Assembly (NCBI RefSeq): GCF_004216665.1
Contig: NZ_SGWY01000001.1
Location: 620,001 to 684,000, forward strand
Source of the DNA: Agromyces ramosus
GTDB lineage: Bacteria; Actinomycetota; Actinomycetes; Actinomycetales; Microbacteriaceae
DNA length: 64,000 nucleotides
Reading direction: 5' to 3'
The notes under the pieces are model-generated. The model saw only the letters and a list, made by a program, of their open reading frames with translations, was not told where the DNA came from and did no database searches. This document shows positions 45,463 through 52,374 of this stretch, in pieces (position 1 is the stretch's first letter; each line of letters starts with the position of its first letter). The position numbers were made by a program, and so were the translations under genes.

Positions 45463-45981
45463 ATGGACGAGACGAGATGGTTGAGCACTGAGGAGTCCGC
45501 GGCCTGGGTGCGACTCGTCGCGCTTGCGGAGCTGCTGCCCGGTGTCCTCGATGCGCAGCTGCTGCGCGACGCCGGCCTCACCCACTTCGAGTACGGCGTG
45601 CTCATGGCCCTCGGCGCCTCCCGTGAGCGCACCATGCGCATGACCGAGCTGGCCTCGCGAACCAACGCGACGCTGCCCCGCCTCTCCCACGTCGCGCGTC
45701 GCCTCGAGGAGCGCGGGCTCATCCGCCGCTTCCCCTGCCCCGAGGACCGCCGGGCGACGAACGCGACGGTCACCGACGCCGGCCTCGCGCTCATCGAGGC
45801 GGCCGCGCCCGGCCACGTCGACACGGTGCGCGCCAACGTGCTCGACGTGCTCTCCCCCGAACAGCTCCAGCAGCTCTACGAGATCGCCGGCCGCGTGCTC
45901 TCGAGGCTCGACCCCGACGAGCGCCTCACCGCGACGTCCTGCCAGTTCAGCGAGGGCCCGGCGCTCGCCCGCGCCGGCTGA
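45463..45981 (+). CDS. MarR-family transcriptional regulator
   Basis: 172 residues. The winged helix lies at about residues 45-105: MRMTELASRTNATLPRLSHV is the recognition region and RRFPCPEDRRATNATVTDAG the wing with the family's DxRxxxxxLT-type motif. A TAGACT -10 ends 6 bases before the ATG, so the transcript is likely leaderless. It probably controls itself and the divergent F420-type reductase. Confidence 0.92.
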   Translation: MDETRWLSTEESAAWVRLVALAELLPGVLDAQLLRDAGLTHFEYGVLMALGASRERTMRMTELASRTNATLPRLSHVARRLEERGLIRRFPCPEDRRATNATVTDAGLALIEAAAPGHVDTVRANVLDVLSPEQLQQLYEIAGRVLSRLDPDERLTATSCQFSEGPALARAG

Positions 45982-46087: not shown

Positions 46088-46174
46088 CGCCCGCGACGCG
46101 TCACGCCGCTCTGGGCAGCACTGCCGTGAGCGGCATCCGCCCCGCGCGCGCCGAGGCGCACGCAGGCTGGACGC

Positions 46175-46798
46175 ATGAGCGAACACGAGACCCCACCGAT
46201 CCAGCCGATCGACGCCGAGCTCACCCGGCGCCTGTTCCACGAGCGTGTCGTCGTGCTCGGCGACGAGCTCGACCAGGCGGGCGGCAACCGCCTGATCGCG
46301 CAGCTGCTCACCCTGTCCGCCGACGATCCGCGCCGTGACATCCGCTTCTGGATCAACTCGCCCGGCGGCTCGGTGCCGGCGATGCTCGCGATCATGGACG
46401 TGATGCGGGCGATCCCGAACGACGTCGCGACCATCGCGATGGGCTGGGCGGCGAGCGCGGGCCAGTTCCTGCTCACCGCGGGCACACCCGGCAAGCGGTT
46501 CGCCCTGCCGCACGCGCGCATCCTCATGCACCAGGGCTCCGCCGGCATCGGGGGCACGGCCGTCGACGTCGAGCTCCAGGCCGACGACCTGCGCTACACG
46601 CGCGACGTCGTGCTCGGCATCACCGCCGAACTCACGGGCCAGTCGCTCGAGCGCATCGCGCAGGACTCGCTGCGCGACCGCTGGTACACCGCCGAGCAGG
46701 CCGTGGAGTACGGCTTCGTCGACCGGATCGTCCACGGATCCGATGAGCTGCTCGGCGGCGGCGCCCGTCCGGTGACCGGACTGCGGGTGTCGGCATGA
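46175..46798 (+). CDS. clpP: ATP-dependent Clp protease proteolytic subunit, active-site intact
   Basis: 207 residues. The serine protease triad is in place: Ser94 in MGWAASAGQ, His119 in ILMHQGSAG, and an Asp in QDSLRDRWYTAEQAVEYG. NSPGGSVPAML is the handle-region glycine motif. The N terminus (about 15 residues) is short, with no obvious long propeptide. It probably forms a mixed or homo-heptameric ring with the next gene product. The promoter seems to be CAGGCT ending 6 bases before the ATG, with no ribosome site. It lies outside the usual clpP1-clpP2-clpX locus, so it is likely an accessory pair. Confidence 0.93.
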   Translation: MSEHETPPIQPIDAELTRRLFHERVVVLGDELDQAGGNRLIAQLLTLSADDPRRDIRFWINSPGGSVPAMLAIMDVMRAIPNDVATIAMGWAASAGQFLLTAGTPGKRFALPHARILMHQGSAGIGGTAVDVELQADDLRYTRDVVLGITAELTGQSLERIAQDSLRDRWYTAEQAVEYGFVDRIVHGSDELLGGGARPVTGLRVSA

Positions 46799-47418
46799 GC
46801 TCCTACACGATCCCCTACGTCGTCGAGAAGCGCGGCAACGCCGAGCGCACGATGGACGTCTACAGCCGGCTGCTCTCCGAGCGCATCGTCTACCTCGGCA
46901 CCGAGATCGACGACGGCGTCGCCAACGTGCTCATCGCGCAGTTCCTGCACCTGGCCTCCGAGTCGAGCGAGACGCCGATCAGCCTCTACCTCAACTCGCC
47001 CGGCGGCTCGCCCGGCGCGGCGCTCGCGGTCTACGACACCATGCGGCACATCAGGCCGGATGTCGCGACGACGTGCGTCGGGCAGGCGGGCGGTCCGGCC
47101 GCGGTGCTCCTCGCCGGCGGCGCCAAGGGGATGCGAGCCATCCTCCCGCACGGCAAGGTGACGCTGCACCAGCCGTCGACGCAGGGCCGCGGCACGGTGC
47201 CCGACCTCATCATCCACGCCGACGAGGTCGTGCGGGTGCGCGCCGAGCTCGAGGCGGCGCTCGCCTCCGACACGGGCCGCGACGTGCTGACGCTGCGCCA
47301 CGACACCGACCGCGACCTGATCCTGCCGGCGGCCGCCGCCGTCGCCTACGGCCTGGCCGACCATGTGCTCGAGGCGCAGGTCCCCGTGGGCCTGACGGAG
47401 GCCGCCGCCGCGCGTTAG
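46795..47418 (+). CDS. ClpP-like subunit lacking the catalytic serine
   Basis: 207 residues, clearly ClpP: MDVYSRLLSERIVYLG, LYLNSPGGSPGAALAVYD, KVTLHQPSTQGRGTV and a TDRDLILPAAAAVAYGLAD end. The usual GQAASMGA reads GQAGGPAA (residues 96-103), so Gly100 replaces the nucleophile Ser; His125 and the Asp are kept. It therefore resembles a structural ClpR-type subunit. The ATG overlaps the active clpP stop (ATGA), implying equal synthesis. Its stop overlaps that of the convergent regulator (TTAG shared). Confidence 0.92.
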   Translation: MSSYTIPYVVEKRGNAERTMDVYSRLLSERIVYLGTEIDDGVANVLIAQFLHLASESSETPISLYLNSPGGSPGAALAVYDTMRHIRPDVATTCVGQAGGPAAVLLAGGAKGMRAILPHGKVTLHQPSTQGRGTVPDLIIHADEVVRVRAELEAALASDTGRDVLTLRHDTDRDLILPAAAAVAYGLADHVLEAQVPVGLTEAAAAR

Positions 47419-47879
47419 GCGGCGAGGAGGAACGCGTCGGAGGGCGCTGCGACGGTCGCGCCGCCGCGCGCCATCGTGCCGGCGGCGTCCGCACCGGTGA
47501 GGTCGAGCGGATGCTGCAGCGCGGAGTCGGCGCGGAAGGCGAGCGACGCCTCGACGAGCAGGCGCTCTCGGCGCTCCGCCTCGCGGCGATCCTCGTCGCG
47601 GCGCGCGCCGAGCCGCTCGCCGACGCGGCGCACCACGTCGAACAGCTCGAGGCCGAGCGCGTCGGCCACCGACCCGAGGATCTCGGACGACGGCTCCTTG
47701 CGCCCGCGCTCGATCTCGGAGAGGTACTGCGGCGACACGCCCGCGGCGGCGGCCACCTCGGTGAGGATCCGCTCCTGGTCGAGGCGCTCCCGGCGGAGCA
47801 CCTCGCCGAGCACGTGCCGCCAGAGCGGCTTCGGCGCGTGCGGGCCGAGCGCCCGCGAGAACTCGACGACCTTGCCCAT
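47415..47879 (-). CDS. ClgR/PopR-like XRE regulator with C-terminal LLAA tail
   Basis: 154 residues. The helix-turn-helix spans about residues 24-80 (ILTEVAAAAGVSPQYLSEIE, then RGRKEPSSEILGSVADALGL), closely resembling ClgR and Streptomyces PopR, activators of clp genes. The last residues are AFLLAA, like an SsrA-type tag. ClgR and PopR are known to be degraded by ClpP through a terminal Ala-Ala, so a feedback loop with the convergent ClpP pair is likely. Its stop overlaps the ClpP-like stop by 4 bases, placing the two genes tail to tail. Confidence 0.85.
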   Translation of the reverse strand: MGKVVEFSRALGPHAPKPLWRHVLGEVLRRERLDQERILTEVAAAAGVSPQYLSEIERGRKEPSSEILGSVADALGLELFDVVRRVGERLGARRDEDRREAERRERLLVEASLAFRADSALQHPLDLTGADAAGTMARGGATVAAPSDAFLLAA

Positions 47880-47966
47880 GTGCCGAGGCTAATCGCGGAG
47901 GGTGCGCGTCGTCAGGCCGATCCGCTCAGGGCAGAATCGGATGCCGCGAACCCGCGCCGCGCGCGC

Positions 47967-48443
47967 TCAGCCCGTCGCCCGCTGCGCCGCCTCGCCGAGC
48001 CGCTCGGCCACCCGCTCGGTCGCCCGCGCCAGCACCTGCTTCTCCTCGGGATCGAGCGCGTCGAGGAACAGGCTCCGGATCGACGCGGCATGGTCGCGCA
48101 GCGAGTGCAGCAGCGTGCGCTTGCCCTCGCGCGTGAGCACGACCCACGAGCCTCGGCCGTCGGTGTCGCACTCGGCTCGCTCGACCAGGCCCCGAGCAGC
48201 CATGCGCGACAGCTGGTGCGACAGCCGGCTCTTCTCCCAGCCGAGCGCCTGCCCGAGCGCACCGGGGCGGAGCCGCCGTTCGGGCGCATCGAAGAGCGAG
48301 AGCAGCACGGAGTAGTCGGCCTGCGAGATGCCCGCATCGCGCTGCAGCCGGCCGTCGAGCTCGCGCATGAGGTCGCGGTGCATGGTGAGGAAACCGCGCC
48401 AGAGCGCCCACTCACCCTCGCCGATCTCTGACACCACGGACAT
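47967..48443 (-). CDS. MarR-family transcriptional regulator
   Basis: 158 residues. The winged helix is at about 45-115: GALGQALGWEKSRLSHQLSR is the recognition region, and ECDTDGRGSWVVLTREGKR the wing. I chose the ATG opening MSVVSEIG, with GGTGGGC close upstream; in-frame ATGs 9 and 18 bases upstream are possible. It is divergent from an FMN reductase gene, with a long inverted repeat over that gene's promoter. Confidence 0.92.
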   Translation of the reverse strand: MSVVSEIGEGEWALWRGFLTMHRDLMRELDGRLQRDAGISQADYSVLLSLFDAPERRLRPGALGQALGWEKSRLSHQLSRMAARGLVERAECDTDGRGSWVVLTREGKRTLLHSLRDHAASIRSLFLDALDPEEKQVLARATERVAERLGEAAQRATG

Positions 48444-48466
48444 GCCCACCATCCTATCCATATTTG

Positions 48467-48506
48467 GTTGACACGTCATCTATTAGGGTTATGATGACGC
48501 GTCAAC
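48467..48506 (+). promoter_or_regulatory. Promoter and MarR operator of the FMN reductase gene
   Basis: TTGACA (48468-48473) and TATGAT (48490-48495) are 16 bases apart, the best consensus promoter in the window. GTTGACACGTCATC (48467-48480) and GATGACGCGTCAAC (48493-48506) are inverted copies differing at one base, covering both boxes. TGACGCGTCA within the right arm is itself a perfect palindrome. A bound MarR would block the promoter fully. Confidence 0.85.
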
Positions 48507-50490: not shown

Positions 50491-52374
50491 ATGACGAGCG
50501 CCGCCACCACCACGGCACCGTTGGTCCGCCATGCCGTCAAGAAGGGCGGCACGTCCGACCGACTGTCGGCGCTCCTGCTGCTCACCTTCACGCTCATCGC
50601 GATCGTGTGGGCCAACTCACCGTGGGGCGCGACCTACGACGAGTTCTGGGACACCGAGGTGGAGGTCATCGTCGGCGAATTCGCCGCGCACCTCACACTG
50701 CACCAGCTCGTGAACGACGGGTTGATGGCGTTCTTCTTCTTCACGGTCGGCCTCGAGGTGAAGCGCGAGTTCACGATCGGCGAGCTCACCGACCGCAAGC
50801 GGGCTGCGGTCCCCGTGATCGCCGCGGTCGCCGGACTCGCGCTTCCCGCCGCGATCTTCCTGCTCCTGAACGCGAACACCGGCCAGGCGCACGCATGGGG
50901 CGTCGTGATCTCGACCGACACCGCGTTCCTGCTCGGCGCGCTCGCGATCATCGGGCCGAAATTCCCGGCGCGGCTGCGCACGTTCCTGCTGACCCTTGCC
51001 GTCGTCGACGACATCGGAGCGCTCGTGGCGATCGCCGTGTTCTACAACGAGGGACTGCGGGCCCTGCCCCTCGGGATCGTGGCGGTGCTGCTCGTGGCGC
51101 TCGCCCTCGTGCGGTTCCTGCCGGTGGGCCGTGGCCCGGCGTACGCCGTGCTGGGCTTCGGACTCTGGCTCGCCGTCGCGGCGGCGGGCGTGCACCCCAC
51201 CCTCGCGGGCGTCGCCGTGGCGCTGCTCATCCCGGTGTTCCCGCCGCGGCGCATGGACGTCGAGCGCGCCGCCGAGCTCACCCGTGCGTTCCGCGAGTCG
51301 CCGAACACCACCTATGCGCGAGCGGCCACCCGCAGCCTGCGCGACTCGCTCTCGATCAACGAGCGCCTGCAGGCGGCGTGGTCGCCCTACATCGCGTTCA
51401 TCGTTCTGCCGATCTTCGCGCTCGCGAACGCGGGCGTGCGGCTCGATCCGGCGACCCTCGCCGCGGCCGTGGTCTCGCCCCTCACGTGGGGCGTGATCGC
51501 CGGCCTCGTCGTGGGCAAGTTCGTCGGCATCACCGGGGCGACGGCACTGGTGCGGATGCTCCGCATCGGCCGCCTCGCGCCGGGCCTCACGATGCCCCGC
51601 ATCGCGGGCGGCGCGGCGCTGTCGGGCATCGGCTTCACGATCGCCCTGTTCATCGTGGGACTCGCGATCGAGGACCCCGAGATGCAGGACCTCGCGCGCG
51701 TGGGCGTGCTCACGGCATCCGTCATCGCATTCGTGCTCGGCTGGGCGATCTTCGTGGTGGGCGACCGCCTCCGTCCGCCGATGGCCGTCGGCGCGAAACT
51801 CGCCCGGCCGTTCGACCCCGAGCGCGACCACTACCGCGGTCGCCCCGACGCCCCGTACCAGATCGTCGAGTACGGGGACTTCGAATGCCCGTTCTGCAGT
51901 CGAGCGACCGGCTCGATCGACGCGGTCATCGAGCACTTCGGCGACGACGTGCGGTGGGTGTGGCGGCACCTTCCGCTCGAGGCGGTGCATCCGCACGCGA
52001 AGGAGGCGGCGCAGGCGGCCGAGGCCGCAGCGCTGCAGGGGCGATTCCTCGACATGGCGCGCACGATGTTCGCGCACCAGGATCGGCTCACGACCGACGA
52101 CCTGTGCCGGCATGCCCGCGAGCTCGGCCTCGACATGGATCGCTTCGCGGAGGACCTCAGATCGCCCGCCGTGGTGCGGCGGGTGGAGGACGACATGCTC
52201 GACGCCGAGCTGATGGACCTGCACTCGACGCCGACGTTCTTCATCGGCGAGCGCCGGCACAAGCGGCCGTACGACTCCGGCACGCTGATCGCGGCCCTCG
52301 AGGCCGAACGCGAGCGGGCCGAGCAGGAGGCGGCGCGGGAGGCACGGGGCGCCCGCTCGGACGGCACCGGCTGA
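50491..52374 (+). CDS. nhaA: Na+/H+ antiporter NhaA fused to a DsbA-like thioredoxin domain
   Basis: 627 residues. Residues 1 to about 430 are NhaA with about 12 spans, including the ion-binding Asp pair in VVDDIGALV (173-174) and [13 protein letters not shown]. Residues about 445-605 are a DsbA/thioredoxin-like domain with CPFC at 466-469 and a cis-Pro motif [12 protein letters not shown]. The last 20 residues are a charged helix. NhaA exchanges sodium for protons at the membrane; the thioredoxin domain would lie on one side next to it. Such fusions are known in actinobacteria; the redox partner is unknown. Confidence 0.92.

Follow-up and report, generated by a model that had tools for sequence, protein, structure and literature searches.

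An Agromyces locus of the PopR-clpP3clpP4 kind with a serine-less second ClpP subunit and a predicted self-activation box before the regulator gene

The accessory clpP locus of Agromyces ramosus, which lies in the 64,000-nt stretch of DNA analysed here (the window), is in our judgement likely to be the form that the PopR-clpP3clpP4 backup Clp protease takes in Agromyces, where the first subunit (P3) would cut, the second (P4) would dock the ATPase and the regulator would act as the switch. Judged by its genes and predicted sites, it belongs to the PopR-clpP3clpP4 kind and departs from it in two respects: P4 lacks the nucleophilic serine, and a predicted self-activation box precedes the regulator gene. 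The finding that is new here is the constancy of the Ser-His-Asp (SHD) triad in P3 (168/168 pairs of related loci) set against its alteration by different routes in P4 (125/168 pairs, with SHD kept in the other 43). The observations behind this reading, namely the triads, pocket residues, boxes, -10 spacing, degron-like end, layout and conservation, can be read in the sequence itself. The genes and gene features of the locus are as follows.

46175..46798, plus strand: clpP3-like gene (P3), catalytic subunit with Ser94-His119-Asp168; Pfam CLP_protease
46795..47418, plus strand: clpP4-like gene (P4), serine-less subunit with Gly100-His125-Asp174; Pfam CLP_protease
47092..47094, plus strand: Gly100 codon of P4, at the place of the nucleophilic serine (GQAGGPAA)
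47415..47879, minus strand: popR-like regulator gene with a ClgR/PopR-type HTH; Pfam HTH_3
47415..47418, no strand: TTAG common to both convergent stops (regulator TAA and clpP4 TAG)
47418..47432, minus strand: C-terminal FLLAA of the regulator, a candidate ClpX/ClpP degron (AA end in related regulators; the genome's own tmRNA tag)

The two ClpPs score 200 bits and 197 bits against Pfam CLP_protease (cut-off 20.2) and the regulator scores 46 bits against HTH_3 (cut-off 23). The nucleophile Ser94 of P3 is encoded at 46454-46456, and the P3 and P4 genes overlap by ATGA at 46795-46798. A sequence-only reading of this DNA had assigned Ser94, His119 and an Asp to the first ClpP and Gly100, His125 and an Asp to the second, and had described a convergent ClgR/PopR-like regulator with an FLLAA end and a TTAG overlap; the sequence bears out both descriptions, the two aspartates being Asp168 and Asp174. 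A genome-wide family search found four PF00574 genes, arranged as two pairs. The core pair is situated on contig 2, apart from the accessory pair, and both its subunits have a complete SHD triad; the triad of P4 is not SHD (Gly100), so the accessory pair does not have Ser-His-Asp in both subunits. The closest named relatives of P4 are from Agromyces. P4 combines an incomplete triad with the ClpP fold, as ClpR does. The single-chain structure model of P4 has a mean pLDDT of 70.8 and query TM-scores of about 0.8 to ClpP structures, a value expected from sequence identities of 42-48%; such a predicted model gives little past the ClpP fold, and a ring is not shown by it.

For the comparison of triads, 448 ClpP domain hits were gathered from loci that had been picked by similarity to two P4 queries, which makes an uneven sample; after two gap-rich hits were dropped and identical rows merged, 421 rows, including four reference rows, were obtained. 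There were 169 loci with a distinct P4, and omission of one gapped row left n=168 for the triads; neither triad nor locus counts are independent, since the pairs have common ancestors. The 209 rows of first subunits, in which core P1 and P3 are pooled, have SHD in 208 cases and SHE in one. The fully supported clade of core second subunits has SHD in 33/33 rows, and nine further rows of uncertain placement comprise eight with SHD and one with SHS. The P4 group of the tree (170 rows, support 0.81) has SHD in only 43. Depending on the lineage, the Ser of P4 is replaced by Gly, Ala, Trp or Glu; the His is replaced by Gly in the Streptomyces type and by Asp or Gln elsewhere; and the Asp is replaced by Thr, Asn, His, Ser, Glu or Ala. 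When the triad columns were removed and a tree was built from 95 P4 representatives together with nine core rows, the minimum numbers of changes among the 95 P4 rows were five for Ser/non-Ser, three for His and seven for Asp/non-Asp (gaps excluded), a count that does not separate gains from losses. As judged from these comparisons, the second subunit has lost its triad several times independently, the serine-less P4 of A. ramosus being one such case.

Several lineages can be followed individually. In Streptomyces P4, GQP stands for HQP, i.e., Gly occupies the place of the catalytic His, in 18/18 loci (L099, L110, L120-L135). Among 120 listed relatives of the P4 of Streptomyces klenkii, whose named organisms are Streptomyces and one Wenjunlia, Gly is found at the His place in 119; the exception, P0023, is a fused database protein with SHD at the aligned places. 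P0023 (P4-P4) and P0066 (P3-P4) are both database proteins in which two ClpP domains are fused in one frame. Sixteen Nocardioides loci, including L058-L060, have Trp at the nucleophile place of P4 together with Thr at the Asp place.

The sequence-only reading proposed that Gly100 be aligned across the family and held that Ser-bearing relatives would point to a local mutation. Such relatives do exist: among the best 120 protein relatives listed, the nucleophile place is occupied by Gly in 109 and by Ser in 11, and Ser is kept in P4 relatives of Cellulomonas sp. B6, Actinotalea soli and several Gordonia and Nocardioides. This part of the objection stands only for relatives from outside the family: Gly occupies the place in 19/19 Agromyces loci and Ser is missing from 38/38 loci of other genera of the same family (Ala in 24, Gly in 14). 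A local point mutation of the P4 serine is thus ruled out. P4 is not favoured as a degenerating gene either: its median dN is 0.083 vs 0.135 for P3 (91 pairs from 14 of the 19 Agromyces loci, with crude dS values), which speaks against decay.

The third place of the ATPase docking pocket, which we take to be place 82 in E. coli mature numbering, is occupied by an aromatic residue or His in P4 but not in P3 in 167/168 pairs. Place 62 is aromatic in nearly all accessory subunits (P4, 170/170; P3, 169/179). Core-side first subunits have aromatic residues at place 60 and at place 82 in 29/29 rows each; the aromatic residue at place 60 is found in 1/179 P3 and 0/170 P4, and that at place 82 in 10/179 P3. 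The pocket of the window's P4 consists of Ser60, Tyr62 and His82, and that of its P3 of Arg60, Trp62 and Ala82. The published experiments, cited in this paper from the available portions of each source, give these residues a meaning. It was shown that the activity of Streptomyces ClpP1P2 comes from the first subunit, that ClpP1 combined with ClpP2 S131A retains full activity, and that the second-subunit pocket changes S94A, Y96V and Y116V abolish degradation with all three ATPases (PMC9765437, in part); in M. tuberculosis, ClpP2 forms the ATPase docking face (PMC4416901, in part). Since the triad is kept by P3 and the place-82 pocket is kept only by P4, it is probable that the cutting is done by one ring and that the ATPase docks on the other. 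Judged by their residues, the two accessory subunits seem to have complementary losses, each lacking what its partner kept, and we infer that P3 and P4 belong to one particle. A structural, ClpR-like second subunit, as proposed by the sequence-only reading, is supported by these data; the companion proposal, that the half-dead ring shifts activity or substrate choice, is doubtful, considering that the second-subunit Ser-to-Ala mutant of Streptomyces is fully active (PMC9765437, in part).

The same mutant favours an explanation of why the residues went. It is possible that the losses in the P4 triad are neutral, the site having been dispensable from the start as P3 cuts, with Gly100 altering neither the rate nor the substrates. 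That the residues lost differ by lineage and that 43/168 P4 still have SHD agree with this explanation, which is compatible with the backup protease and to which we give an even chance. Second subunits of the core protease, however, are also dispensable for activity in Streptomyces and have kept SHD in every row of their supported clade, and dispensability alone therefore fails to explain the bias of P4.

The presence of a docking-type pocket in P4 bears on two other possibilities. Since the docking-type residues of P4 are like those of core ClpP2, P4 (or P3) might swap with core subunits and form hybrid rings, e.g., of core ClpP1 and P4, that would retune the main machine; in Streptomyces hawaiiensis, ClpP_ADEP works with core ClpP2 (available part of PMC12607617). 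P3 is, however, located upstream (5') of P4 on the same strand in 168/169 loci, which favours a dedicated pair, and we consider hybrid rings improbable. ClpP_ADEP was also reported to disrupt ADEP-activated ClpP1 (PMC12607617, same part), and P4 could by analogy be a poison subunit that breaks core rings when an antibiotic hyperactivates core ClpP1. Against such a role, P4 has kept its docking pocket and its alignment to canonical ClpP starts at the N-terminal loop, as would be expected for a working ring, and P3 co-occurs; we regard it as very improbable. A ClpP1 Tyr-to-Ser change at place 60 impairs ADEP binding (PMC9765437, in part) and ClpP3P4 is reported to be ADEP-insensitive (PMC12607617, in part); the absence of the place-60 aromatic residue offers a sequence reason for the insensitivity of ClpP3P4 to acyldepsipeptides.

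The convergent regulator is present in 161/168 loci with enough DNA, including 18/18 of the Streptomyces type, and was not found within the available DNA at seven (L009, L014, L015, L020, L155, L159 and L171). The tail-to-tail layout is thus the ordinary one, and the suggestion that this layout with its overlapping stops constitutes a distinct, new version of the PopR system is ruled out. Among the 161 related loci with a regulator, the gene ends overlap in 20, and in four of these, the window's own included, the overlap is exactly four bases long; in 91 of 161 loci the ends of clpP4 and of the regulator gene are 0-49 nt apart. The stop overlap is a minor feature. NUDIX, metallo-beta-lactamase-like and MarR neighbours (the first two named by eye) recur in several Agromyces species, which suggests that the accessory locus is inherited within the genus. 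A MarR-family gene stands on each side of the module, at 45463-45981 and 47967-48479, the latter 87 bases upstream of the regulator and in the same direction; farther away, the ORF at 50491-52374 appears by eye to encode an NhaA-type antiporter fused with a thioredoxin/DsbA-like domain. In a sample of 299 genomes of the family, the window's own included, a listed P4-type match (at least 183 bits) occurs in 42, and the module is therefore patchy. Of seven genomes of the genus, again counting its own, G240 is the one in which there are just two matches to ClpP. Genome G268 (loci L017 and L190) has as many as seven, of which two are of the P4 type.

Over 50 residues, the regulator (P0003) shares 66% identity with its counterpart at the Streptomyces klenkii locus, and its HTH part has a median identity of 51% to the 18 Streptomyces-locus regulators vs 43% to the genome's own ClgR. 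It falls below the cut-off of the ClgR equivalog NF041677 (77 bits; cut-off 170 bits), as does the best other copy of the genome (100.9). An AA end is present in 146/161 related regulators, 130 of which end in LAA; the remaining 15 end in VA (7), AS (3), VS (2), AG (2) or AV (1), and three of the regulators with VA (L042, L013 and L044) are from Agromyces. The tmRNA tag of the genome is ANKKQSDFALAA, which ends in FALAA, and the FLLAA end of the regulator thus resembles a tag read by ClpX. The genome's own ClgR-like protein (L115, G000:C1:58486-58797) ends in DADMMVR, i.e., without AA; for Streptomyces ClgR, an AA end is reported in the accessible part of a review (PMC9775585). In S. lividans, degradation of PopR requires ClpP1 and ClpP2, and purified ClpXP1P2 of S. 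hawaiiensis digests PopR (PMC9765437, in part). A neighbouring ClgR-paralogue regulator with two terminal alanines accompanies the clpP pair here, and the proposal of a PopR-like module with a ClpP-type degron on its regulator is supported by the prevalence of AA ends and by the tmRNA tag.

The predicted regulatory sites of the window are as follows.

46105..46119, no strand: PopR-type box A, GCCGCTCTGGGCAGC; matrix score 11.7, third best of 63986 window places
46120..46134, no strand: PopR-type box B, ACTGCCGTGAGCGGC, tandem partner of box A; score 9.4, sixth best
46163..46168, plus strand: -10-like element CAGGCT in the clpP3 promoter, at a distance of 28 nt from box B
47886..47891, minus strand: -10 element TAGCCT of the regulator promoter; TANNNT, with 28-30 nt spacing in related promoters
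47921..47935, minus strand: PopR-type box before the regulator, TCTGCCCTGAGCGGA; best single site in the window, 19.3 read on the plus strand

The box matrix was trained on 146 non-Agromyces loci, and the single-box threshold was set at 12. An unprimed count of palindromes 5' of clpP3 in 165 loci placed TCTGCC-N3-GGCAGA at the top of those with 6-base arms (26 loci, compared with at most four in 20 single-base shuffles); this sequence occurs in the PopR site cited in PMC9775585 (in part). Before the first clpP of the window it is present in a degenerate form, as two tandem boxes: A and B are each below the single-box threshold, and as a pair they are the best tandem of the 64 kb (21.1 vs 4.7 for the next). 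A box scoring at least 12 precedes clpP3 in 155/165 loci and is missing in 5/19 Agromyces loci, the window's own included.

A box scoring at least 12 is also found upstream of the regulator in 98/160 loci vs 28/744 random background stretches, and in 18/18 Agromyces loci that have a regulator. By type of P4, it is present in 38/38 loci with Gly, 20/20 with Trp, 25/30 with Ala and 15/40 with SHD, and in 0/6 with Glu, 0/6 that lost Asp and 0/20 that lost His, 18 of the last being the Streptomyces-type loci. Serine loss and the regulator box are a raw association, and no link between the two is claimed, as there are only three independent pairs on supported branches. The PopR-type box upstream of the regulator leads us to predict self-activation through the strong site at 47921-47935, a box not seen in the 18 Streptomyces-type loci; since it is absent from the His-lost loci, the system studied so far is not known to activate itself.

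TANNNT follows the box at 28-30 nt in 89/98 boxed regulator promoters, and clpP3 promoters have CANNNT at an offset of 28-29 nt in 80/163 cases and TANNNT in 1/163. The start codon lies 6 nt past the -10 element in both the clpP3 and the regulator genes of the window, and the two messages may therefore be leaderless. Boxes placed just 5' of the core promoter fit activation. It could be argued that the regulator is instead a repressor, or that it is stable and its LAA end incidental, given that 15/161 related regulators lack AA. The boxes, however, are 28-30 nt upstream of the -10 element, clear of the core promoter, the poor -10 of clpP3 suits an activator, and PopR is named a transcriptional activator of clpP3clpP4 in the available parts of PMC9765437 and PMC12607617; we consider a repressor or a stable regulator quite unlikely. 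A wider regulon was also considered and rejected. The seven other TCYGCYNNNRGCRGA sites of the genome have no TANNNT within 60 nt after them on either strand, and this pattern is not enriched genome-wide (eight sites vs 24 for the reversed control). The junction pattern GGGCAGCACTGCC has one exact match, at the accessory locus.

An activator of this kind would complete the backup protease in the following way. P3 would hold the only complete active sites, and P4, a pseudoprotease, would complete the double ring and give a face for the docking of ClpX or ClpC. While the core works, the regulator with its ssrA-like end would be destroyed by ClpX and core ClpP1P2. When core capacity drops, it would accumulate and bind the tandem boxes before clpP3 and the box of its own gene, and this binding would turn the spare on from the clpP3 promoter with its poor -10 element; the spare P3P4 may then trim the regulator. 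The ring composition, the degradation of the regulator and the direction of regulation are inferred from the sequence together with the published Streptomyces experiments. A more specific version of this scheme, which in our estimate could go either way, is that the losses are complementary: the docking pocket would have been lost in one subunit and the active site, repeatedly, in the other (in Streptomyces P4 too), so that neither would work alone, and the particle would carry all seven of its active sites on a single ring and offer a single docking face. Within the branch that contains Agromyces, Gordonia and many Nocardioides, the clpP3 promoter with its poor -10 would be driven by an activator that activates itself and is degraded by ClpP; this activator would be a latch that reads the loss of free core Clp capacity and switches on a version without the ADEP-pocket aromatic residue.

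Among known systems, the locus shares with PopR-clpP3 clpP4 of Streptomyces lividans a two-gene accessory clpP operon, a ClgR-paralogue regulator and a PopR-type box before clpP3, and with the Streptomyces-type loci a convergent regulator ending in LAA (18/18). It differs from the Streptomyces type in that P4 has lost the Ser and not the His, and in having the regulator box, which none of the 20 His-lost loci has. As in the housekeeping ClpP1P2 of Streptomyces and Mycobacterium, the second subunit would dock the ATPases (PMC9765437 and PMC4416901, both in part), and as in the Streptomyces enzyme the activity would come from the first (PMC9765437, in part); unlike P4, the core second subunit has SHD, and unlike P3, core-side first subunits are aromatic at places 60 and 82. 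Cyanobacterial and plastid ClpR is likewise a ClpP paralogue that forms part of a mixed core without being catalytic (PMC7966870 and PMC6508832, both in part), but P4 clusters with actinobacterial second subunits, in a tree without any ClpR sequence. ClpP_ADEP of S. hawaiiensis is similar as an accessory ClpP that bypasses an antibiotic-hit ClpP1; it differs in being a single gene near the ADEP cluster, nearest to ClpP1, with no regulator of its own described in the available part of the source (PMC12607617).

ClpP3 expression via PopR serves as a read-out of ClpP1P2 function (PMC9765437 and PMC12607617, in part); in the available parts of these two papers we found no description of the role of ClpP4. 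A literature search made mostly at listing level, with little coverage of subscription papers, turned up neither a description of a degenerate ClpP4 triad nor one of self-regulation by PopR. The docking-pocket split, the loss of His from Streptomyces P4 and the box upstream of the regulator are additions to the sequence-only reading. If P4 is indeed a pseudoprotease that arose by several independent losses, the second subunits of these loci would constitute a natural repeated experiment on the minimal active sites and docking faces of a Clp particle, and the predicted self-activation box would provide a testable switch.
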